Of a DNA stretch of 64,000 bases, positions 29,256 through 40,314 are shown piece by piece. Source of the stretch: Rhizobium rhizoryzae (GTDB lineage Bacteria > Pseudomonadota > Alphaproteobacteria > Rhizobiales > Rhizobiaceae); contig NZ_CP049250.1 in assembly GCF_011046895.1 (NCBI RefSeq), forward strand, positions 3,136,501 through 3,200,500, written 5' to 3'. The position numbers and the translations under genes are program-made. The notes below the pieces were generated by a model, which saw only the letters and a list, made by a program, of their open reading frames with translations, did no database searches and was not told the origin of the DNA. Position 1 is the first letter of the stretch. The number at the start of each line of letters is the position of its first letter.

Positions 29256-30587
29256 ATGCCGGTCGAGACCCAGGAACCGAGAATCGAAATCTTGCTCGTC
29301 GGCATGAACGGCGATCTTCGCGGCAAGCAGATTCCTCTCAGCGCGCAGAACAAGGTGTGGGATGGCAAGGTGCGGCTGCCGACATCCACGCAATCGCTGG
29401 ACATCTGGGGCGATGACAATGACGATATCACGGGCCTCTCACTGACGCTCGGCGATCCCGACGGCTGCTGCATTCCCGATCCCAGAAGTCTGGCACCCAT
29501 GCCCTGGGCGCCGCAAGGATCGGCACAGGTTCTTTCCACAATGCATGAACTGACGGGCGAACCGAGCTTCATGGATCCGAGGGCGATCCTGTCCTCCATG
29601 CTTGCCCGGTTTGCAGAGCGGGGGCTGACACCGGTCGTTGCGACCGAGCTTGAATTCTACGTGATCGAGGACGATTGGCGAGAGAGCGGCAAACCGCGCC
29701 CGCCAAGATCTCTCACCTACCGGGGCGAACCGAACGGATTTCAGCTCTACGACATGAGCGCCGTGGACGCCCTGCAGGGCTATCTGGACACGTTGCGCGA
29801 ATGGGCGGATCTGCAGGGCCTGCCAGCGGACGCCTCGACGGCAGAATTCGGCCCTGGCCAGTTCGAGATCAACCTCAACCATCGGCCGGATGCTCTGGCG
29901 GCGGCCGATGACTGCATCTATCTCAAGCGTCTTGCGCAGATGGCGGCACGCAAGCATGGCCTTCGCTCAACCTGCATGGCCAAACCCTATGGCGACCATG
30001 CTGGTTCCGGCCTGCATGTGCATGCCAGCGTCATAGATAGATCAGGGCGCAACGTGCTGGATGCGGCAGGTGGGGAACCGACTGCCTTGAAATCTGTCTG
30101 TGCCGGAATGCTGGAGACGATGCGGGAAGCGCAGCTCGTCTTTGCACCCTTTGCCAATTCCTACCGACGGTTCCAGCCCGGCTCCTTTGCTCCCGTGGAT
30201 ATCGATTGGGGTGTCGGCCATCGCGGGACGGCGATCCGCATTCCGGAAACCGATGGACCGGGCGCACGTATCGAGCATCGGGTGGCAGGCGCAGACGCCA
30301 ACCCCTACCTGCTGCTGACGGCGATTCTCGGCGGCATTCTGAGAGGGCTCGATTCGACGCTGGATCCGGGTCCGGCAACCGAGGCGGGCCAGCAAGCCAC
30401 GAGTGGCAGAAGACTGACCCATGACTTTCTCACCGCCGTCGAGGACTTCGCGCAGTCAGAGTATATTCGAGATACGTTCGGCGAAGGCTACCAGCGCCTC
30501 TATGCGGATACGAAACGCAAAGAGGCCATCGCCTATCTGCGCACGGTGTCCGATTTCGATTACCAGACCTATCTCGCGCGTATCTAG
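29256..30587 (+). CDS. Glutamine synthetase-like gamma-glutamyl ligase
   Basis: The 443-residue protein is of the GS superfamily: a beta-grasp N-terminal domain (MPVETQEPRIEILLVGMNG), then ATELEFYV, the metal-binding GQFEINLNH, KPYGDHAGSGLHVHAS, and RIPETDGPGARIEHRVAGADANPY, which contains the Arg and Glu expected at the active site. It is not the main GlnA; it resembles gamma-glutamylputrescine or gamma-glutamylmethylamide synthetases and GlnT-type paralogues. GAGG lies 5 nt before ATG 29256, while the GTG at 29226 and the ATG at 29229 have no clear site. Tail-to-tail overlap of 4 nt with the downstream kinase gene is noted. Confidence 0.82.
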   Translation: MPVETQEPRIEILLVGMNGDLRGKQIPLSAQNKVWDGKVRLPTSTQSLDIWGDDNDDITGLSLTLGDPDGCCIPDPRSLAPMPWAPQGSAQVLSTMHELTGEPSFMDPRAILSSMLARFAERGLTPVVATELEFYVIEDDWRESGKPRPPRSLTYRGEPNGFQLYDMSAVDALQGYLDTLREWADLQGLPADASTAEFGPGQFEINLNHRPDALAAADDCIYLKRLAQMAARKHGLRSTCMAKPYGDHAGSGLHVHASVIDRSGRNVLDAAGGEPTALKSVCAGMLETMREAQLVFAPFANSYRRFQPGSFAPVDIDWGVGHRGTAIRIPETDGPGARIEHRVAGADANPYLLLTAILGGILRGLDSTLDPGPATEAGQQATSGRRLTHDFLTAVEDFAQSEYIRDTFGEGYQRLYADTKRKEAIAYLRTVSDFDYQTYLARI

Positions 30588-31540
30588 AGGGAAGGCTGCT
30601 GTTCAACCATGCCTTCCTGGTCCTGCACCTGAAGGGTGGGCTGCTGCGGCTGGCGAACCAGCACTTTAAGCTCCCCGGCGTGAATACGCAGTTTGACATC
30701 CCTCGCCATTGGCAGCAGCTCCCCATCGATGACGCAGCGCACATCGTGCCGCCGCTTGGGAAAATGCAGTTCCAGTTCGGTGGCTGTCATCGCGGTTACG
30801 GCCTCGTTCTCCTTCAGCTTGCCGCGCAGGATATCGATCGTCAGCTTGGCAACGCCCGCCGGCGTCAAGGCGTCTGCGATGTAGAAACCGAGGTGGCCGC
30901 CCGTGACACTGTCGGCGTAGAGAAGCGCATCCTCGCCGAACTCGTTGTTGGAGACCGAAATGGCGGAAACCTTGCGCAGACCGCGGCGGCCTTCGGCGTT
31001 AAATTCCACCTCGAAAACCGGTGGATTGAACATCACGCCCAAAGCGGCCCTGGCATTGGCTCGCATCTTTCCAAGCCGCGAGGCATAGCTCATCTGGTTG
31101 CGATATCGCACCATGCGGGCATGCAGACCCGCGGAAAACTGGTGCACGAAGCTGTGGCCATTGGCGCTGGCAATATCCACGTGCTCCACCTCGCCTCGCG
31201 CCAGAACATCGATCACCTGCCAGATATCGAGAGGCAGTTTGAGAGTGCGCGCGAAGAGGTTCATGGTGCCTGCAGGCACGATGCCCAGCACGAGACCGCT
31301 TTTCCAGGCAATGCCAGCCGCCGCGGAAATGGTTCCATCGCCACCACCGGCAATCAAACCGTCGACCCCGCTTTTCGCGACCTCTTCCATGGCGCTTACG
31401 ACATCGTCTCCGGCTACGACCCGGCATTCGATGTCATGCCCTTGCTCTGCGAAGATGCGCGCGGCATGATCGCAATAGGCGTCCATGTCGGTCGTCTTGA
31501 AGGTACCGCCGTCACGGTTGAAGATCGCAATGAGTTTCAT
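30584..31540 (-). CDS. Diacylglycerol kinase-like lipid kinase
   Basis: The 318-residue protein has the DAGKc fold. GGGDGT at 65-70 binds ATP phosphates and is followed by VPAGTMNLFARTLKLP. A C-terminal beta-sandwich comprises the second half, where VCIDGE-type residues appear as VIDGELLPMARDV. Members phosphorylate diacylglycerol, sphingosine, ceramide or related lipids, so the substrate is uncertain. There is no membrane anchor. Its stop overlaps the stop of the converging ligase gene. Confidence 0.85.
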   Translation of the reverse strand: MKLIAIFNRDGGTFKTTDMDAYCDHAARIFAEQGHDIECRVVAGDDVVSAMEEVAKSGVDGLIAGGGDGTISAAAGIAWKSGLVLGIVPAGTMNLFARTLKLPLDIWQVIDVLARGEVEHVDIASANGHSFVHQFSAGLHARMVRYRNQMSYASRLGKMRANARAALGVMFNPPVFEVEFNAEGRRGLRKVSAISVSNNEFGEDALLYADSVTGGHLGFYIADALTPAGVAKLTIDILRGKLKENEAVTAMTATELELHFPKRRHDVRCVIDGELLPMARDVKLRIHAGELKVLVRQPQQPTLQVQDQEGMVEQQPSL

Positions 31541-31704
31541 TGAAGCCCGCGTTCCATCTCAAATCCGCACCACAACGGCGCCAGAGTTAAATGGTTGCCT
31601 TTTATGAATGCGACAAGCCCGACCAGCACATTGCCGGACAATCCGATTGCGATTTGCCAATTTAAACCGTTTCGCAGTGCAATATGATATGCTAGCCTTA
31701 TTAA

Positions 31705-31723
31705 GCGATGTCAAAAACATCGC
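31705..31723. repeat. Inverted repeat upstream of MFS gene
   Basis: GCGATGT and ACATCGC flank CAAAA, 36 nt before the MFS start. It may be a regulator site or an mRNA hairpin; no T-run follows. Confidence 0.4.
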
Positions 31724-31759
31724 CTTCAAAGTTTCTCCTCCCGCCAGACAGTGAATTTC

Positions 31760-32989
31760 ATGACTGATACCCTTGCCGCAGACCGGGCTAACGATCCGTC
31801 AGTTCTGCGCGACCGAACCGCTCAATCCCTCTCTCCCATGACAATCGTGCTCATCGAGATCGCGCTGGCGGTCGGTGGGTTCGGTATCGGAACCGGCGAA
31901 TTTGCCATCATGGGCCTGCTGCCGGATGTTGCCGCTACCTATGGCGTCAGCATTCCTCAGGCGGGCTATGTCATCACCGCCTATGCGCTGGGCGTGGTGA
32001 TCGGCGCACCGATCATAGCTGCACTGACAGCTCGGGTTAGTCGCCGCAGCCTTCTGCTGATGCTGATGTCCATCTTTGCGATCGGCAATATTCTGAGCGC
32101 CGTTGCGCCGGATTTCACCACCTTTACCGCTCTCCGCTTCGTCACAGGCCTGCCCCACGGTGCCTATTTTGGTGTCGCGGCTCTTGTGGCCGCCTCCATG
32201 GCAGCCCCACACAGGCGTGCCCGCGCTGTCGGACGCGTGATGCTAGGCCTGACCATCGCAACGCTGATCGGCACGCCCATCGCTACCTTCCTCGGTCAGA
32301 TGATGAGTTGGCGCGCCGCATTTCTGCTGGTCGGCGGCGTTGGCCTGCTGACGGTCGCACTCGTCTGGCTGTTCCAGCCGCAGGATCAGGTTCAGCCGGG
32401 CGCGAGCATTCGCCGGGAGTTGGGAGCGCTTCAGCGACCGCAGGTCTGGCTGACGCTCGGCGTGGCCGCAACCGGCTTTGGCGGCATGTTCTCCATCTTC
32501 AGCTACATCGCCTCAACGACGACCGAGACCGCCATGATGCCCGTCGCCATGGTGTCGTTCGTGCTTGCGCTCTTCGGCATCGGTATGAATGTCGGCAATG
32601 TCATCGGTTCCCGTCTGGCTGACATATCGCTCAAGGGGACGATCGGCGGCGTGATGCTGTTCAACGTCGTGGTTATGACGGTGTTCAGCCTGACGGCGGA
32701 TGTGCCGTTCATGCTGTGCCTTTGCGTGTTTCTCATCGGCTGCGGATTTGCCGCCTGCCCCGCGGTTCAGACGCGCCTGATGGATGTTGCCGCCGACGCG
32801 CAAACGCTTGCTGCTGCGTCCAGTCATTCGGCTTTCAACATTGCCAATGCGCTTGGGGCGTGGCTCGGCGGCCTGACGATCGCCTGGGGCTATGGCTACG
32901 GCTCCACCGGCTATGTTGGCGCGGCACTCTCGCTGGTGGGCCTTGCGGTCTTTGCCGTGTCTGTCGCACTGGAGCGGAAGAAGGACTGA
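31760..32989 (+). CDS. MFS transporter (DHA1/AraJ-like efflux)
   Basis: The product is about 409 residues long, with twelve predicted helices. The GTGEFAIMGLLPDVA motif in helix 1 and PHGAYFGVAALVA in helix 5 are characteristic of the arabinose-efflux/AraJ-type DHA1 subfamily (drug, sugar or purine efflux). The basic loop ARVSRR between helices 2 and 3 is the MFS signature. Initiation at the ATG 31760 or the in-frame GTG 31751 is uncertain; neither has a good ribosome site. It is a single gene with a terminator shared with the converging transpeptidase gene. Confidence 0.88.
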   Translation: MTDTLAADRANDPSVLRDRTAQSLSPMTIVLIEIALAVGGFGIGTGEFAIMGLLPDVAATYGVSIPQAGYVITAYALGVVIGAPIIAALTARVSRRSLLLMLMSIFAIGNILSAVAPDFTTFTALRFVTGLPHGAYFGVAALVAASMAAPHRRARAVGRVMLGLTIATLIGTPIATFLGQMMSWRAAFLLVGGVGLLTVALVWLFQPQDQVQPGASIRRELGALQRPQVWLTLGVAATGFGGMFSIFSYIASTTTETAMMPVAMVSFVLALFGIGMNVGNVIGSRLADISLKGTIGGVMLFNVVVMTVFSLTADVPFMLCLCVFLIGCGFAACPAVQTRLMDVAADAQTLAAASSHSAFNIANALGAWLGGLTIAWGYGYGSTGYVGAALSLVGLAVFAVSVALERKKD

Positions 32990-32998
32990 TCGGAAGCA

Positions 32999-33036
32999 AA
33001 GGCGGCGACTGGTTTCCCTCCGCCGCCTTGTTGTTT
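32999..33036. terminator. Terminator between MFS and L,D-transpeptidase genes
   Basis: AAGGCGGCG and CGCCGCCTT pair perfectly across a 13-base loop; the following sequence GTTGTTTC is T-rich. The loop is large, so efficiency is uncertain. Confidence 0.65.
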
Positions 33037-33049
33037 CAACCTTTTGAAA

Positions 33050-33673
33050 TCAGGCGCGGGCTTCCTGAATGACGACAACCTTGTCGCCCACCTTCACGCG
33101 GGAATAGAGATCCACGACATCGTGGTTCATCATGCGAATGCAGCCACTCGACATGGCATGACCGATCGACTCTGGCTGGTTGGTGCCGTGGATGCGGAAA
33201 TGGGTATCGGCACCGCCCCGGTAGAGATACATTGCGCGTGCTCCGAGTGGATTATTGGGGCCACCCGGCATTCCACCGGCAAGCTTCTTGTAGCGGGCTT
33301 CTCTGCGCTGCATGTTGGCGGTCGGCGTCCAGGTCGGCCATTCGGCCTTGCGACCGACATAGGCATTTCCGGCCAGTGCAAGACCGGCACGGCCCACACC
33401 GACGCCGTAGCGCATGGCGCGTCCGTTATCCAGCACATAGTAAAGACGACGCGCAGGCGTATCCACCACGATCGTGCCCGGCTTGTGTTCCGTCGCATAG
33501 GCCACTTCGGTTCGACGCAGTTCCGGCCTGATCTTGTCGAGCGGCACTTCCTTCAGGGGATGCAATTCGTTCGGCCGGGCCGAGTAATCTGCCTGCTGGG
33601 TTCCGGAGGTAGAAGCGCATCCGGCAAGGAGAAGCGGAAGCCCGATCAGCAGTCCGCGGCGCGAGATCGACAT
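33050..33673 (-). CDS. L,D-transpeptidase (ErfK/YbiS type), lipoprotein
   Basis: The 207-residue protein begins MSISRRGLLIGLPLLLAGC: a twin-arginine-like SRRGLL followed by the lipobox LAGC, so it is probably a lipoprotein, possibly exported by Tat. The YkuD domain covers about residues 65-200 and ends with HGTNQPESIGHAMSSGC, in which His and Cys are the catalytic pair, then IRM. It would make 3-3 cross-links in peptidoglycan or attach outer-membrane proteins to it. The ATG 33673 has an AAGGA site. Confidence 0.9.
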   Translation of the reverse strand: MSISRRGLLIGLPLLLAGCASTSGTQQADYSARPNELHPLKEVPLDKIRPELRRTEVAYATEHKPGTIVVDTPARRLYYVLDNGRAMRYGVGVGRAGLALAGNAYVGRKAEWPTWTPTANMQRREARYKKLAGGMPGGPNNPLGARAMYLYRGGADTHFRIHGTNQPESIGHAMSSGCIRMMNHDVVDLYSRVKVGDKVVVIQEARA

Positions 33674-33751
33674 GAATGTGTCCTTATTGCGGTCATCTTG
33701 AGATGAATCGCACGTTAAGGACATTATAGTTAATGAAGCACTAATTCAGGC

Positions 33752-34822
33752 TCAGGCAAGCGACCGCAGCGTAACGCAGATGCAGATGATGGTGAACATC
33801 AGCGGCATGACGTACCGGACCACCCGGCGAACTTCGCTGGACAGGAAGGGATAGGCCGTGCGTCCCGGAAAGCGCTCACTTTCCATGAAGAGATCGATCA
33901 GAAGCGCCAGGATCAGATAGAAATATCCGATCGAGATCATGAAGGCGATTGGCGATGTCACCGACATGCTGCCGGGGAAACTTGCCTCGAAGGTGAAGCT
34001 CAAAGCCGCCAGCGCCAGAAGTGCTGAATAGGTGACACCCGTTTTGTCGCCGATCAAACCCTTCGGCTGCCACAGGATGAACAGCGATACGGACAGGACG
34101 GCGATGAACGGAATGAAAATGCGCAGGAAATAGCGCGGCCATTTGCGATCGATGGCAACCTCTGCCGTCAGCTTCGCAAAGGGCCTTGCACTCCAACCAT
34201 AAAACTGGGCCGTCGTGAAGGAGAGGTTCTTGGCGCTCCAGTCCGAGGCAGAAAGCTGGGGCGGCAATCCGGAGAGCTGCCGATCCTGAAAGTCCTGCAC
34301 GAAGACCACATCATCAGCCGGATAGTACTGGGATACGAAGGCCAGCCTCACATGCTGCTGATCGAAGGGAAAGGCCGACAGGTCACGGGCAAAACGGAAG
34401 CTCCCCTCAAGCCTGCGCATCGACGTCACTTCCCCGTTGCTGCGGATCGACAGGGCTTCAAGCTGGAGCGTTTCATCTCCGCTGCGGTTCTCGATCTCGA
34501 CAGCGGGGTTCCAGATCGTGGCGAGCTTCGCTGCGGCTTCCGCGCCGGTGAAATCCTGCCGATCACGACCGAACTGGATGGCATTGAACTGAAGCGCGGG
34601 ATCTTTCCAGCGCTGCTGCACTTCGACGACCAGTTGCGCATCGCCCGTGGTCTCATCGATCTTGAGAATATCGAGCACACGGACAACCAGATGGATCTGC
34701 AGGGGACGCTGCACGCCTTGCGGAAGCGGCTGACGTTCAGCCCCCTCCTGCGCAGAGACAGCGAACGATCCGAGCAGGATGACGAGACACGCAACGAAAA
34801 GCCGAAGAAACATATTGTGCAT
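33752..34822 (-). CDS. Pentameric ligand-gated ion channel homologue (pLGIC)
   Basis: The 356-residue protein looks like a bacterial member of the Cys-loop/pro-loop receptor family (GLIC/ELIC group). A signal peptide (about residues 1-24, cut near VSA|QE) precedes a periplasmic ligand-binding beta-sandwich. The characteristic loop FPFDQQHVRLAF sits near residue 150 and lacks the animal Cys pair, as in other bacterial members. Then come three helices, M1 (YFLRIFIPFIAVLSVSLFIL, about 232-252), M2 (GVTYSALLALAALSFTFEAS) and M3 (PIAFMISIGYFYLILALLID), with the expected proline-containing M2-M3 loop (FPGSMSVTSP), and a last helix M4 (PLMFTIICICVTLRSLA) ending at the C-terminus. It would be a homopentameric ion channel opened by an unknown extracellular signal. 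Ion selectivity cannot be read from this. The ATG has GGGGAG 11 nt upstream and begins 3 nt after the stop of the receptor gene. Confidence 0.88.
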   Translation of the reverse strand: MHNMFLRLFVACLVILLGSFAVSAQEGAERQPLPQGVQRPLQIHLVVRVLDILKIDETTGDAQLVVEVQQRWKDPALQFNAIQFGRDRQDFTGAEAAAKLATIWNPAVEIENRSGDETLQLEALSIRSNGEVTSMRRLEGSFRFARDLSAFPFDQQHVRLAFVSQYYPADDVVFVQDFQDRQLSGLPPQLSASDWSAKNLSFTTAQFYGWSARPFAKLTAEVAIDRKWPRYFLRIFIPFIAVLSVSLFILWQPKGLIGDKTGVTYSALLALAALSFTFEASFPGSMSVTSPIAFMISIGYFYLILALLIDLFMESERFPGRTAYPFLSSEVRRVVRYVMPLMFTIICICVTLRSLA

Positions 34823-34825
34823 GGT

Positions 34826-35932
34826 TCAAGGCTCCCCGGCCCGATCCTGCCTCGTGGACACAGCATCGGAGACGGCTTTTTGCAGATCGCGGAACTCCTT
34901 CAGTCCACTGGTCGCCTGCGATTTGGCGGCTTCTTCAGGCGACGCCTTCACCCGGACCGCCAGATCCTTCAGGGGTCTGATCACGGCTGCGCGCACCGTG
35001 CTCATGAAGATCGCGGTCACGATCAGGAGGCCGGCCAGAAATACTGACCCGATCGTGACCAGTGAACGGTTGTAATAGCTTTCCAGCGATCCAAAATCAC
35101 TGACAGTCAGGATCGTTCCGATCATGTTACCGCTATAGTCGATCAGCGGGCGACCCTGAATGGTCAGATCCCGGTCCCCCAGTCGATGGAAGAAAAGAAG
35201 CTCGCTACGGGAGAGCTGGACCTTGCCAGCGCCGAGAATGCTTTCGAACAGACCCTTGTCGGTGGCGGCATCAAGAACAAGACCATTGGCGGACACGACG
35301 GCATTGCCCACGTCTTTCAGGTAGCGACGATCAAGCACGAGAGCAAAATCACTGCCGCTGGCAGCCTTGGCAAGATCGGCAAGCGCCTGCAGATCGACGC
35401 CGACCTCAACGGTTCCGATGAAGTTGCTTCCGCTCGTGTCGAAAACCGGGGATACCGCGCGAAGGCTCAAGCCCCGCACGCCAAGCTCCAGCCCCTTCTG
35501 CGTCTGCCGGTCGTGATTGGCAGCCACCACCATCGGACGGAAGGTGGAAAGATCCTGCCCGAAATTCTGCGGTTCCCAGACGCGCAGAAAGGACTTCATG
35601 GCTGCATCATGGAAATGCACCACGCTAACGCCCGCCAGGCGTGCCAGCCGCTCGAACATCGGCTTGGCATAGGCCTGAAGCTCGTTGCGAGAACCTGCCG
35701 CCAGATGGGTACGAATGGAAGGATCAGCGGCCAGAAGCTCGGAATGTGTTGCGGAAAGAATGGCGGCCTGATCCATCGTGGTCGAAAAAACCACCGAGGT
35801 CTGATCGATTTCACGTTGGCGGGCATCGGTGAGCAGTGCCTGCTGGTCGGCAATCATCAACCAACCGCCAAGAAGCAGCACAAGACCGACACAGAGAGCA
35901 GATACGAAGGCGAGAAAACGATCGAGCGACAT
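34826..35932 (-). CDS. Membrane receptor with dCache_3-like sensor and no output domain
   Basis: The 368-residue protein has a membrane anchor (about 7-28), a periplasmic region of roughly 255 residues and a second helix at about 288-310 (GSVFLAGLLIVTAIFMSTV). The periplasmic part carries the double Cache-3 pattern MKSFLRVWEPQNFGQDLSTF, then GLELGVRGLSLRAVSPVFD and IGTVEVGVDL. The cytoplasmic tail is only about 58 residues and HAMP-like (RPLKDLAVRV ... LKEFRDLQKAV), with no kinase, methyl-accepting, GGDEF or EAL domain after it. It should sense small molecules in the periplasm. The immediate downstream neighbour, 3 nt away, is a ligand-gated channel, which could be its output. Confidence 0.85.
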   Translation of the reverse strand: MSLDRFLAFVSALCVGLVLLLGGWLMIADQQALLTDARQREIDQTSVVFSTTMDQAAILSATHSELLAADPSIRTHLAAGSRNELQAYAKPMFERLARLAGVSVVHFHDAAMKSFLRVWEPQNFGQDLSTFRPMVVAANHDRQTQKGLELGVRGLSLRAVSPVFDTSGSNFIGTVEVGVDLQALADLAKAASGSDFALVLDRRYLKDVGNAVVSANGLVLDAATDKGLFESILGAGKVQLSRSELLFFHRLGDRDLTIQGRPLIDYSGNMIGTILTVSDFGSLESYYNRSLVTIGSVFLAGLLIVTAIFMSTVRAAVIRPLKDLAVRVKASPEEAAKSQATSGLKEFRDLQKAVSDAVSTRQDRAGEP

Positions 35933-35995
35933 GAACCCAAGCTTTGACCGGCGGAGACTGTCGCTGTTTCACTGGTAAAGTGTAATGGAGTCAAT

Positions 35996-36009
35996 CAAGC
36001 GAACGCTTG
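35996..36009. repeat. Inverted repeat upstream of receptor-channel operon
   Basis: CAAGCG and CGCTTG flank AA, about 64 nt before the receptor start, in the only intergenic region that could hold the promoter of the operon. It may be an operator. Confidence 0.42.
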
Positions 36010-36085
36010 CCCACAATAACGATCATCAATGCCGATTGATAATTGTCGCTATGACCAGAAGAACGCAGCCTGAACAGGTCGGAAA

Positions 36086-36859
36086 TCAGTCTTCTTCGCA
36101 GGGCCATTCGACAGGAACGGTCAACCCTTGAGGAAGCTTGGTCTTGCTGTTTCCGCAAGACAAGGCAATCTGATCCTGCTTGAGACCCGTCGCCTGACTG
36201 AGGTCTACGCCCTCGAAACGCGTGAGAAACAGGAAGGCATTAGCGAAATCGACCGGCCCCTTCATGGAGGCGCTCTTGAACGACGCTCTCGCAAGGTTAG
36301 CCATGGCAAAATGCGTGTCTCCCAATTCCGCACCCTTGAACACTGCCCGTCCAAGTTCTGCCTTGGTGAAATCCGCTCCCACAAGCGTTGCATCCGTGAA
36401 ATTGGCGCGCTGCATTTCAGCCATCGTGAATTTGGTCTGCGTCGCCACGACGCTTCCGAAGTCGCTGCGATAGCCTTCCACCTTCAGAAGCGAGGCACTG
36501 CTGAGATCTGCCTTGACGAAGGATGTGCGAATGATGGCTGCCTTGGTGAGATCGGCACCAACCAGCTTGCTGCGGCTGAAATCGGAATTGCTGAGATCCG
36601 CCTCCGCCATCTTCGCCTTTTCAAAATTGCTGTCCTTCAGCATCAGCATTCGCTTCTTGCAGTCAGCCCAGTTGACTTCCGGGCCTGCATCCGCGCGGCA
36701 GCGGCCGCCGCCAAATCCGTTATGCTTGTTGGGGAACAGCAATACCAAGCCACCCGCAATCACGATGATCGGGATGAAGATCTTCATCTTGCTTTGGCGG
36801 ATACGGCTCCAGGCTCTAGACCAGAAGGACTTCGGTTTCCGCTTGACGGGTGCGTTCAT
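36086..36859 (-). CDS. Membrane-anchored pentapeptide-repeat protein
   Basis: The 257-residue protein has one membrane helix (about residues 25-43, FIPIIVIAGGLVLLF) after a basic cytoplasmic N-terminus; the rest, presumably periplasmic, is mostly A(D/N)LXX-type pentapeptide repeats (for example ADLSNSDFSRSKLVGADL) forming a right-handed beta-helix from about residue 75 to 225. Cysteines at each end (GRCRADAG, WADCKK and LSCGN, WPCEED) may form disulfides. The function is unknown. It is transcribed in the same direction as the receptor-channel pair, 153 nt away. Confidence 0.82.
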   Translation of the reverse strand: MNAPVKRKPKSFWSRAWSRIRQSKMKIFIPIIVIAGGLVLLFPNKHNGFGGGRCRADAGPEVNWADCKKRMLMLKDSNFEKAKMAEADLSNSDFSRSKLVGADLTKAAIIRTSFVKADLSSASLLKVEGYRSDFGSVVATQTKFTMAEMQRANFTDATLVGADFTKAELGRAVFKGAELGDTHFAMANLARASFKSASMKGPVDFANAFLFLTRFEGVDLSQATGLKQDQIALSCGNSKTKLPQGLTVPVEWPCEED

Positions 36860-37006
36860 GGTCTTGCCAGTGCACTTTCCAACACAATTGCGTCAGTCTT
36901 AGCGTGGTTACCCCTTAGCCGAAAGAGGAAAGCGATGCCTCTTGACCGCTTTCCCTGCTCATGGCTGTTCGCTCAACGAAATCGCTGACGTGCGGTTCCG
37001 CAGTCG

Positions 37007-38665
37007 CTACATGCTGGGATAGACTGGCCCCTCGCCGCCCTGCGGCGGCACCCAGTTGATGTTCTGGTTCGGGTCCTTGATATCGCAGGTCTTGCAGTGA
37101 ACGCAGTTCTGCGCGTTGATCACGTAGACCTGTTCACCATCCTTCTCCACCCATTCATAGACGCCTGCAGGACAGTAGCGTGCGGACGGTCCGCCATACA
37201 CGCCTAGCTCGGAACGCTTCTGCAGGTCCATGTCCTTCACCTTCAGATGAACCGGCTGGTCCTCTTCATGGTTGGTGTTGGACAGGAAGACCGATGACAG
37301 GCGATCGAACGTCAAAACGCCATCTGGCCGCGGGTATTCAATCTTCTTGTGCTGGGCTGCGGGCTCCAGCGATGCGGCGTCGGTCTTGCCATGTTTCATG
37401 GTGAAGGGTGACGTGCCGAAGATCTGGTTAATCCACATGTCGATGCCGCCGAGCGCGACGCCAAGTGCTGTGCCGAACTTCGACCAAAGCGGCTTCACGT
37501 TGCGCACCCGCTTCAGATCCTTGCCGATGGCGGTCGAACGCCATTCGTTCTCGATCTCGACAGGCTCGTCGTTGGCGCGGCCTGCAGCAATGGCTTCCGC
37601 AATCTTTTCCGCCGCCAGCATGCCGGAAAGAACGGCGTTGTGGCTGCCCTTGATGCGCGGAACGTTGACGAAACCGGCCGAGCAGCCGATCAGCGCACCG
37701 CCGGGGAAGGAAAGCTTCGGCACCGACTGGTAACCGCCTTCTGTGATCGCGCGGGCACCATAGGAAATGCGCTTGGCACCTTCGAAGGTGTCGCGAATGG
37801 CCGGATGCGTCTTGAACCGCTGAAACTCCTCGAACGGGAAAAGGTAGGGGTTCTTGTAGTTGAGGTGCACGACGAAGCCGACAGCCACGAGATTGTCATG
37901 CAGGTGATAGAGGAAGGAGCCGCCACCGGTCTTCATGTCGAGCGGCCAGCCAAAGGAGTGCTGAACCAGACCGGCCTTGTGGTGTTCCGGCTTGACCTCC
38001 CACAGCTCCTTGAAGCCGATGCCGTATTTCTGCGGCTCACGACCTTCATCGAGCTTGAACTTCGAAATCAGTTGCTTGGCGAGCGAGCCCCGCACGCCTT
38101 CGCCGATCAGCACATATTTGCCAAGAAGCGCCATGCCGCGGGTGAAGTTCGGGCCGGGTTCGCCATTCTTCTCGATGCCCATGTCACCGGTTGCGACGCC
38201 GATCACCGCGCCCTGCTCATTGTAGAGCACTTCAGTGGCGGCAAAACCCGGATAGATATCGATGCCAAGCGCCTCCGCCTTCTCGGCGAGCCAGCGACAG
38301 ACGAGACCAAGGGATACGATGTAATTGCCGTGATTGTTCATCAGCGGCGGCATGAAGGCGTTCGGTAGCCGGACGGAGCCTGCCGGACCGAGGAAAAGGA
38401 ACTGGTCGTCGGTCACCGGGGTCTTGAACGGATGGCTGGCATCGTCGCGCCAGTCCGGCAGAAGTCGATCAATGCCGATTGGATCGACGACAGCGCCGGA
38501 GAGAATATGTGCGCCGACTTCCGCGCCCTTTTCCAGCACGACGACCGAAAGTTCCGGGTTCAGCTGCTTCAACCGGATTGCCGCCGACAGGCCTGCGGGC
38601 CCTGCCCCGACGATGACCACGTCGAATTCCATGCTTTCGCGCTCAGGAAGCTCCATATCGCTCAT
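37007..38665 (-). CDS. Electron transfer flavoprotein-ubiquinone oxidoreductase
   Basis: ETF-QO passes electrons from reduced electron transfer flavoprotein to ubiquinone in the inner membrane. The 552-residue product has the FAD motif VVIVGAGPAGLSAAIR near residue 16, a central ubiquinone-binding half, and a C-terminal 4Fe-4S domain with CPAGVYEW, NCVHCKTCDIKDP and the conserved tail WVPPQGGEGP. ATG 38665 has a GGAGTGAGAGA site; the extra upstream frame starting at 38692 lacks family similarity. No etfAB genes are adjacent. Confidence 0.95.
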   Translation of the reverse strand: MSDMELPERESMEFDVVIVGAGPAGLSAAIRLKQLNPELSVVVLEKGAEVGAHILSGAVVDPIGIDRLLPDWRDDASHPFKTPVTDDQFLFLGPAGSVRLPNAFMPPLMNNHGNYIVSLGLVCRWLAEKAEALGIDIYPGFAATEVLYNEQGAVIGVATGDMGIEKNGEPGPNFTRGMALLGKYVLIGEGVRGSLAKQLISKFKLDEGREPQKYGIGFKELWEVKPEHHKAGLVQHSFGWPLDMKTGGGSFLYHLHDNLVAVGFVVHLNYKNPYLFPFEEFQRFKTHPAIRDTFEGAKRISYGARAITEGGYQSVPKLSFPGGALIGCSAGFVNVPRIKGSHNAVLSGMLAAEKIAEAIAAGRANDEPVEIENEWRSTAIGKDLKRVRNVKPLWSKFGTALGVALGGIDMWINQIFGTSPFTMKHGKTDAASLEPAAQHKKIEYPRPDGVLTFDRLSSVFLSNTNHEEDQPVHLKVKDMDLQKRSELGVYGGPSARYCPAGVYEWVEKDGEQVYVINAQNCVHCKTCDIKDPNQNINWVPPQGGEGPVYPSM

Positions 38666-38827
38666 TCTCTCACTCCGCTCGGCCGTTCCCATCTTTCCAC
38701 TTCCTTGTCAAAACCTGCGCGCCTTGTCGAGCGAACATATGACATGGGGGTATGATCGTCCGGCCCCTCCTAGATCTGGGAGCGAAGATAAATAACGTTT
38801 ACGTTCACGTCAATATTTGACGAAGAC

Positions 38828-39385
38828 CTACGAAATGCGCGGCCGGATTTGCGGCACTGCGATCTCTTCCGCCCTTTCGAGCAGAAAGATGTAGTGGTCG
38901 CTCTGCCCTTCAACCACCATCAGACCCATGACGCGATCCGCATCAATCCGGCGGAAATGATCAATGATCGGCTGATCGTCATAGATCATGGCTGCACTTG
39001 ATGCGGCACGGAATTCGGCGGATTTGACGGCAGCAACCGGCCCGCGCGCCCACATTCCCTTCATGGCATAGGCAAACAGGTTTCGGAACCACTGCCGACG
39101 CACCAAACCGCTAAACCGGAGCACCAGACGCAGCGGAAGATGCTTCGGGTCCAGCGGCACAAGCCTTCGGCTACCGACACTGAACAGAAGCGCATCTGCC
39201 CTGCGGTCGGCATGGAAGCGCTTTCCATACCAGCCAAGGCTTTCCAGCGCCCCGTCCAGCGGATGACCGGTCGGCAGGCTAGACCCCTTCCACAGACCGA
39301 TGAGTTCGGACGGCGTGATCGGGTCCAGGGAATCGAAGAAGACCAGGGCTTCTTCCTGTGTTTCGAATTTCAGCGGGGATGACAT
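38828..39385 (-). CDS. GXWXG/DUF4334 protein
   Basis: The 185-residue protein has the GXWXG motif in ELIGLWKGSSLPTGHPLDG near residue 30 and the DUF4334 segment MIYDDQPIIDHFRRIDADRV near residue 140. It is a cytoplasmic beta-rich protein of unknown function. No ribosome site precedes the ATG, but a TATAAT sits 7 nt upstream, so the mRNA may be leaderless. It is divergent from an SDR gene. Confidence 0.82.
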   Translation of the reverse strand: MSSPLKFETQEEALVFFDSLDPITPSELIGLWKGSSLPTGHPLDGALESLGWYGKRFHADRRADALLFSVGSRRLVPLDPKHLPLRLVLRFSGLVRRQWFRNLFAYAMKGMWARGPVAAVKSAEFRAASSAAMIYDDQPIIDHFRRIDADRVMGLMVVEGQSDHYIFLLERAEEIAVPQIRPRIS

Positions 39386-39392
39386 AAATTGA

Positions 39393-39420
39393 ATTATAGG
39401 TGCTCTGGTTCAGGGGGCAA
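39393..39420 (-). promoter_or_regulatory. Promoter of GXWXG gene, probably leaderless
   Basis: On the minus strand TTGCCC and TATAAT are spaced 16 bases apart, and the TATAAT is only 7 nt before the start codon. Transcription would begin at or beside the ATG, with no room for a Shine-Dalgarno sequence. Confidence 0.5.
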
Positions 39421-39525
39421 CTTTATCATCAACATTCGATGAAAAGATCATTCACAACCCTTCACCATCGGACCGTCCGGCGATAACGTCCGCGCCAGAC
39501 TAAGCATGCAGCAAGGAAACTGATC

Positions 39526-40314
39526 ATGGATTTCGGCATTACCGGCAAACGCGCACTGGTGTTGGCCTCATCACGAGGCCTTGGACTTGGCATCGCCACG
39601 GCGCTGGCTCAGGAGGGTGCAAATGTTCTCCTGTGTGGTCGCAGTGGAGAAAAGCTGGCGGAGAACTGCGCACGAATCAACGCTCTGGGCAAAGGCAAGG
39701 CCGATTGGGTCTGGTCCGATCTTGCCGAAGACGATGCGGTCACGGCACTGGTCAAGGCTGTTGAGGAGAAGTTCGGCGGCGTCGATATCCTGGTCAACAA
39801 TACTGGCGGCCCGACACCTGGAACGACCGAAGACATGACACCGGAAAAGCTGGACAGCTTTTTCCAGACCATGGTCCTGCGCGTCATTACGCTGACGAAT
39901 GCTGTGTTGCCCAACATGAAGGCGCAAGGCTGGGGTCGCATCCTGACCGTTGCCTCATCCGGCGTCATCGAGCCCATTCCAAATCTTGCGCTATCGAACA
40001 CGCTGCGCGGGGCGCTCGTCGGCTGGAACAAGACGCTGGCAACGGAAGTGGCGGCGCACGGAATTACGGCGAACATGATCCTGCCGGGTCGTATTCATAC
40101 GGACCGTATCGACGAATTGGATGGTGCCAACGCCAAGCGCCAGGGCAAGTCGCTGGAAGAGGTTCGTACTGCCTCGATCGCCTCGATCCCGGCAAAGCGT
40201 CTCGGAACCGTCGAGGAATTCGGCGCGGTTGGCGCCTTCCTGTGCTCAGGCCCAGCCGCCTATGTGACAGGCAGCACCATTCGCGTTGATGGCGGCGCTG
40301 CAAAGTCAATCTGA
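39526..40314 (+). CDS. Short-chain dehydrogenase/reductase, divergent active site
   Basis: The 262-residue protein has the SDR Rossmann fold: ASSRGLGLGIATAL for cofactor binding, CGRSGEKL, NNTGGPTPG, VASSGVIEPIPN and the PGRIHTDRI loop. The usual catalytic Tyr-x-x-x-Lys is replaced: the aligned positions read Ser and Arg in ALSNTLRGALVGW. Such divergent SDRs are known and may act on other substrates or not catalyse at all. It starts with an AAGGA site at ATG 39526 and is followed by a stem-loop. Confidence 0.85.
   Translation: MDFGITGKRALVLASSRGLGLGIATALAQEGANVLLCGRSGEKLAENCARINALGKGKADWVWSDLAEDDAVTALVKAVEEKFGGVDILVNNTGGPTPGTTEDMTPEKLDSFFQTMVLRVITLTNAVLPNMKAQGWGRILTVASSGVIEPIPNLALSNTLRGALVGWNKTLATEVAAHGITANMILPGRIHTDRIDELDGANAKRQGKSLEEVRTASIASIPAKRLGTVEEFGAVGAFLCSGPAAYVTGSTIRVDGGAAKSI

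Follow-up and report, generated by a model that had tools for sequence, protein, structure and literature searches.

The window, a 64,000-nucleotide stretch of Rhizobium rhizoryzae DNA, encodes a pair of adjacent genes in which a double-Cache sensor without an output domain precedes a pentameric ligand-gated ion channel (pLGIC). This is a genuine, conserved arrangement, and within one pLGIC lineage it is near-obligate. On balance we favour the reading that the sensor, a headless chemoreceptor, serves as a dedicated sensor or accessory subunit controlling that lineage, and from the evidence below we infer both contact with the channel and an influence on its gating.

The receptor gene (34826..35932, minus strand) encodes a protein of 368 amino acids, identified by Pfam and an AlphaFold2 model as a dCache_3 sensor. 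Starting from the N terminus, a first membrane helix (amino acids 9–27, 35852..35908, minus strand), found by hydropathy and forming in the model part of a long helix spanning residues 2–68, leads into the periplasmic dCache_3 double sensor domain (amino acids 39–279, 35096..35818, minus strand), which matches PF14827 with an E-value of 1.5e-27 and 97.2 bits against a curated cut-off of 25.7. A second membrane helix (amino acids 291–309, 35006..35062, minus strand; hydropathy) returns the chain to the cytoplasm, where it ends in a degenerate HAMP-like tail (amino acids 310–368, 34829..35005, minus strand) that is missing in some relatives. Pfam matched neither an output domain in general nor MCPsignal in particular at E≤1, and the protein, related to chemoreceptors (MCPs), is not itself an MCP. 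These Pfam and hydropathy results bear out the dCache_3-like sensor, two membrane helices and missing output domain of the original prediction. Its HAMP-like tail is on weaker ground than stated there: in the alignment the tail begins as the HAMP domain of MCPs does, but it gives no Pfam HAMP match at E≤1. The AlphaFold2 model (mean pLDDT 89.2, pTM 0.74) shows a first helix of 67 residues, a pair of mixed alpha/beta lobes connected by helix 181–192 and a long helix 281–330, a predicted shape that is as expected for a double-Cache transmembrane receptor.

The named relatives are Rhizobium lemnae (98% identity in the receptor), Rhizobium sp. FKY42 (96%), FY34 (68%) and R. terrae (57%), and database protein P0002 is 82% identical by BLAST. 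Searched by sequence against solved structures, the receptor gave nothing convincing, and its profile gave weak matches only: the second helix resembles NarQ (E 0.02), residues 149–181 a histidine kinase sensor (E 0.02) and residues 151–182 the citrate sensor CitA (E 0.24–0.51). Because these matches are weak, an anionic ligand is a lead only; the predicted ligand is a small, perhaps anionic, metabolite. The published passages on dCache_3 at hand name no ligand.

The channel gene (33752..34822, minus strand) encodes 356 amino acids. Its extracellular ligand-binding domain (34142..34717, minus strand) matches PF02931 (Neur_chan_LBD; E 3e-19, 69.7 bits against a cut-off of 26), and its best solved relative is the proton-gated ion channel Glr4197 (E 8.1e-14), which we take to be GLIC and to which residues 32–346 align into M4. 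Both results agree with the earlier assignment as a bacterial homologue of Cys-loop receptors. Neur_chan_memb was not matched by Pfam at E≤1, and hydropathy alone flagged M1, M3 and M4 and missed M2. The pore helix M2 region (amino acids 259–283, 33974..34048, minus strand) was placed by conservation over 57 channel rows, 50 of which are database homologues entered without sight of their gene neighbours and drawn from the 113 proteins of a database search (alignment A4). With prime positions assigned by nicotinic-receptor numbering, the residues of the window channel are D −1′, K 0′, L 9′, E 19′ and P 23′. Leu 9′ is found in 54/57 rows, Pro 23′ in 55/57, D or E at −1′ in 52/57 and E at 19′ in 54/57. 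Acidic M2 residues in the pLGIC superfamily point to cations, and the acidic residue at −1′ suggests that the channel is probably cation-selective. A plasmid search returned nothing matching the channel.

The two genes lie on the same strand, 3 nucleotides apart, an arrangement that matches the predicted operon type of a stand-alone Cache gene with a pLGIC gene. The coordinates of both reading frames and the gap are as originally described, and the junction (34820..34837, minus strand) reads TGA ACC ATG, from receptor stop to channel start. A Shine–Dalgarno-like GGGGAG, judged by eye, lies within the receptor gene, 9 nucleotides before the channel ATG. Promoter and terminator scans gave matches no commoner than chance, Rfam found no match over window positions 30000–40000, and PHROGs matched neither the receptor nor the channel. 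An L,D-transpeptidase (YkuD) gene (window positions 33050–33724) starts 27 nucleotides behind the channel, and frames of the same size lie behind the channel at the same distance in loci L020 and L021.

PF02931 was searched in overlapping genome samples and occurs in 9/57 genomes of the genus, 16/200 relatives, 24/397 genomes of the order, 5/385 of the class and 7/398 of the phylum, with 4/12, 2/15 and 1/18 genomes in three families, the last being that of genome G916. Of the 44 distinct pLGIC loci that these samples of the phylum yielded, 21 are immediately preceded, on the same strand, by the gene of a homologous sensor. These comprise 18 of the 38 loci in the first survey, L020 and L021 (near copies of the window pair) and L086, and cover 8 genera and 6 families, one outside the class; within the genus, the sensor is upstream in all 10 pLGIC loci. 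The original prediction had staked a functional receptor–channel pairing on neighbourhood conservation beyond near-identical strains, and the wide conservation found here supports that pairing strongly. The remaining 23 pLGIC genes lack a sensor partner; they include L081, whose channel is cut by the contig, the weak matches L077 and L089, and L087, where the upstream contig is too short for a whole receptor gene and the absence is uncertain. The receptor profile of the first survey was built from 10 of its 18 loci, the other 8 being found unseeded, and a later 20-pair profile found L086 unseeded.

In each of the 20 measured pairs, and in L086, the receptor gene comes first. The stop-to-start spacing in the 20 pairs is −4 in 12, −1 in 3, +3 in 3, +4 in 1 and +16 in 1, with starts picked by script and the +16 case (TTG) uncertain; L086 has a spacing of −4 with a GTG start, and stop and start codons overlap in 16 of 21 pairs. 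No conserved third gene emerged: among the longest flanking frames of 18 loci, which include antisense and out-of-frame ones, no further frame is common to more than 4 loci, with a script that recovered the receptor in only 11/18 and the channel in only 10/18. A 697-aa frame in L012/L053 was considered as a natural fusion and rejected, its front half being another frame of a separate 416-aa receptor gene. Individual loci show further features. A solute-binding protein gene lies 5–38 nucleotides behind the channel in L065 and L066 (DctP) and L071 (PBP_like_2), bringing together at one locus two partner types that appear apart from each other in Tasneem et al. In the channel at L072:5590-6957, a Pro/Ala-rich stretch of about 90 additional residues, judged by eye, separates the signal peptide from the ligand-binding domain, and at L076:6955-8238 a DUF5624 protein gene follows 15 nucleotides behind a pLGIC gene that has no receptor partner.

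The phylogeny of the channel follows the presence of the sensor. In a first tree, built without L081 and four phylum loci, one branch separates channels with a sensor from those without (20 versus 19 rows, support 100/99), and P0132, a channel of Rhodopseudomonas palustris, is placed on the paired side. A second tree gives the same split (18 versus 20 rows, support 100/100); it adds three phylum rows and is built without L081, L077, P0132, L089 (a weak 194-aa frame), L053 (a near copy of L052) and the near copies L020 and L021. The split is present in 100% of 200 bootstrap trees for both, with some branches long enough that the tree program warns of false joins. From the receptor side, a profile run over 397 genomes of the order gave 11 matches of 340–538 bits, all 11 beside a channel; the next match scored 201 bits, and three lower matches are short frames of 221, 225 and 288 aa. 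The alignment behind the profile includes 29 of the 33 proteins from the receptor database search. Given that the run scored at most 5 candidates per genome and that the profile contains several of the proteins it finds, each partner was seen in this lineage only together with the other.

Receptor and channel distances are strongly correlated across 20 pairs (Mantel r 0.92, with 0 of 5000 permutations as high). This correlation indicates inheritance as a unit and not contact, because linkage alone would produce it. Two genomes, G054 and G183, each hold two pairs that are only 22–36% alike. For L047 and L059, one and the same locus supplies the closest receptor and the closest channel, and for L058 both belong to a single group of four loci that are nearly equal; three of the four members thus follow their partner's relatives, and L054 gives no clear answer.

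The sensor is related to chemoreceptors. In the genus, dCache_3 occurs at 55 places in 37/57 genomes. Short frames (<480 aa) number 14, of which 10 lie beside a pLGIC gene, as opposed to none of the 41 long frames (Fisher p 3e-8), two of which run to the contig start (G028, G031). The other four short frames are a 223-aa piece (L093), a frame at a contig end (L094), a dCache_3–HAMP protein of 467 aa (L095) and a split chemoreceptor (L096). At L096:3794-6057, the dCache_3 frame overlaps a HAMP–MCPsignal frame, as if one chemoreceptor were laid out in two frames. All five complete long genus members scanned are dCache_3–HAMP–MCPsignal proteins, the contig-cut long frame L098 shows dCache_3–HAMP, and all nine long matches scanned from the order carry MCPsignal, so that every complete relative with an output domain that was scanned, 14 in total, is an MCP. 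Pfam HAMP is found in 11 of these 14, 5/5 at E≤0.01 and 6/9 at E≤1e-6. Other outputs of dCache_3 proteins include histidine kinases and cyclases besides MCPs, with no ion channel among them in the passages of Upadhyay et al. 2016 (PMC4822843) that treat them.

The dCache_3–HAMP–MCPsignal chemoreceptors share the sensor domain and two-helix topology of the receptors; unlike them, the receptors have no recognised HAMP domain and no signalling head, and form their own group. This group is recovered against nine MCP-group dCache_3 proteins, L095 and L098 among them (support 99/99), and against the 14 scanned MCPs (100/99), in trees that cover MCPs and leave out dCache_3 histidine kinases and cyclases. 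L095, which is headless and has no channel, groups with the MCPs. A receptor protein search returned 32 short dCache_3 proteins and 1 MCP among 33 matches, at a limit of 1.75 times the query length that leaves out most long MCPs. The receptor is likely to have descended from an MCP, a direction of descent that the trees do not settle. At the level of residues, R117 and R132 are present in 20/20 receptors and 9/9 MCP-group rows, and P121, G147 and E149 in 18–19/20 and 9/9. D127 and K189, which every receptor has, occur in only 3/9 and 1/9 MCP-group rows, respectively, and are candidates for an altered ligand or partner contact.

Conservation also bears on where the output of the sensor could go. 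In the receptors, conservation is lowest in the tail, with an identity of 0.23 as opposed to 0.54 in the MCP group, and highest in the distal Cache module (0.43, equal in the MCP group); these values compare 16 receptors from several families with 8 MCP-group rows from one genus, and their absolute sizes are not strictly comparable. The two membrane helices are poorly conserved (0.24 and 0.25). Such low identity is not what a tight, conserved membrane interface predicts, and it counts against control of the channel by the sensor. In 4/20 sensors, those of L065 and L066 (near copies), L069 and L071, only 8–11 residues follow the second membrane helix, which makes a cytoplasmic output unlikely in these four. 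The receptor probably sends its output sideways and not into the cytoplasm.

We propose that the two genes encode one sensor–channel unit. Receptors of the dCache_3 type are probably dimeric. The dCache_3 module, probably as a dimer, would bind a small solute in the periplasm and shift its own membrane helices; with no kinase relay, the receptor would then act through the periplasm and the membrane on the channel translated along with it (probably a homopentamer) and alter its opening, in a role like that of the dCache-bearing accessory subunit of animal calcium channels. A bolder version, to which we give slightly less than an even chance, is that solute recognition in one lineage of Cys-loop homologues has been handed to a decapitated chemoreceptor, with binding at dCache_3 gating the channel. 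Against sensor control stand the 23 of 44 pLGIC genes without a sensor partner and the complete extracellular domain that the channel retains, with which it may need no helper. Should the proposal hold, a chemoreceptor sensor has been re-wired to an ion channel, one sensor fold controls kinases in chemotaxis and ion flow in this system, and the pair would offer a bacterial counterpart of alpha2delta control and, with just two proteins, a simple model of how an accessory subunit controls a Cys-loop-type channel. What bacterial pLGICs do in nature has long been asked, and a near-obligate sensor partner offers a direct way into that question.

The rival we take most seriously, at perhaps one chance in several, makes the receptor a factor for assembly, stability or localisation of the channel and leaves solute sensing to the extracellular domain of the channel itself. 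A partner that is near-obligate for the paired lineage only would fit such a factor, as would the fixed gene order, and animal alpha2delta, which bears a dCache domain, has trafficking roles in calcium-channel complexes according to the relevant part of PMC9420018. The high conservation of the distal Cache module and the invariance of R117 and R132 look instead like a binding function that has been kept. Somewhat less probable, and in our view unlikely, is a role as a binding protein tethered to the membrane, which would concentrate the ligand or present it to the channel's own site with no direct gating contact. For Cache and PBP partners, such a role was put forward by Tasneem et al. in the section of PMC549065 concerned, and the solute-binding proteins encoded right behind the channel in three loci lend it some colour; in those same loci, however, a second binding protein would be redundant, and two membrane helices with a long stalk helix seem typical of transmembrane signalling and not of tethering.

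Two further readings we consider improbable, the latter the more so. Two independent sensors could share an operon and answer the same condition, with the receptor having no action on the channel: linkage alone would yield the co-inheritance, and the patchy spread of the channel (9/57 genomes in the genus, 1/18 in the family of G916) fits gain and loss as a block. A receptor without recognised output, virtually tail-less in 4/20 cases, would nevertheless have nothing to signal through. Very doubtful is a headless receptor whose target is intact chemoreceptors, where it might serve, for instance, as a decoy or as one half of a mixed dimer in chemotaxis arrays. The kinship with MCPs and the 38 MCP signalling-domain matches in the window genome make the idea conceivable, but that genome, with one dCache_3 match, offers no second dCache_3 protein as a partner, the tail has degenerated or is missing, and the channel would be left unexplained. 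We therefore retain the dedicated sensor or accessory subunit as the preferred reading.

A pairing of this kind has been described before. Tasneem et al. 2004 (PMC549065), in the part that deals with gene neighbourhoods, report a stand-alone Cache gene beside an ART-LGIC channel gene in a predicted operon of Rhodopseudomonas, propose cooperation between the two, and describe other channels fused to Cache domains. The supposition in the original prediction that the pairing was undescribed is partly wrong on this account. The Rhodopseudomonas genes have the same arrangement as the window pair and are very probably the same system, judging from the place of the R. palustris channel P0132 in the paired clade. 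That report, in the same part, concerns one bacterium and is without the receptor family, the chemoreceptor kinship, the tail-less forms and a clade-wide association. New here are the near-obligate association, the chemoreceptor kinship, the tail-less forms and the binding-protein genes behind the channel in three loci. Among the matches listed from the openly accessible literature, as far as their text could be seen, no other paper treats a Cache–pLGIC pairing, and Jaiteh et al. 2016 (PMC4795631) makes no mention of Cache, operon, neighbourhood, periplasmic, rhizobial or chemotaxis matters.

Several known channels offer partial parallels. GLIC is homologous to the window channel over nearly its whole length, and we know of no separate dCache_3 subunit for GLIC or ELIC. 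In DeCLIC, extra periplasmic modules influence the gating of a prokaryotic pLGIC, as stated in the portion of PMC9897478 that covers them; these N-terminal accessory domains resemble the window pair in adding a periplasmic module to the channel, but they are covalently fused jelly-roll lobes, whereas the window sensor is a separate two-helix Cache protein. Animal alpha2delta, described in the corresponding passage of PMC9901441 as a dCache-bearing accessory protein of voltage-gated calcium channels, is likewise a dCache-bearing partner of an ion channel. The likeness would lie in the way of working only: alpha2delta has dCache_1 and serves another channel superfamily, and common descent of the pairing is not implied.

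A second, separate Cache–pLGIC neighbourhood was found in four genomes of another family (L070, L073, L074 and L075, with L090–L092). There, an ELIC-like channel (L073: E 2e-71 to ELIC) lies between the genes for a PLP decarboxylase and a Cache protein. The decarboxylase was identified by Pfam in 3/3 copies scanned, and glutamate decarboxylase TIGR01788 scored over its cut-off in 2/2 scanned; ELIC itself has been reported near a glutamate decarboxylase gene in the pertinent lines of PMC3119659. The Cache protein, identified in the one copy scanned (L073), has a long tail that matches nothing in Pfam and appears kinase-like by eye, and an MFS transporter gene comes next in the one copy scanned.
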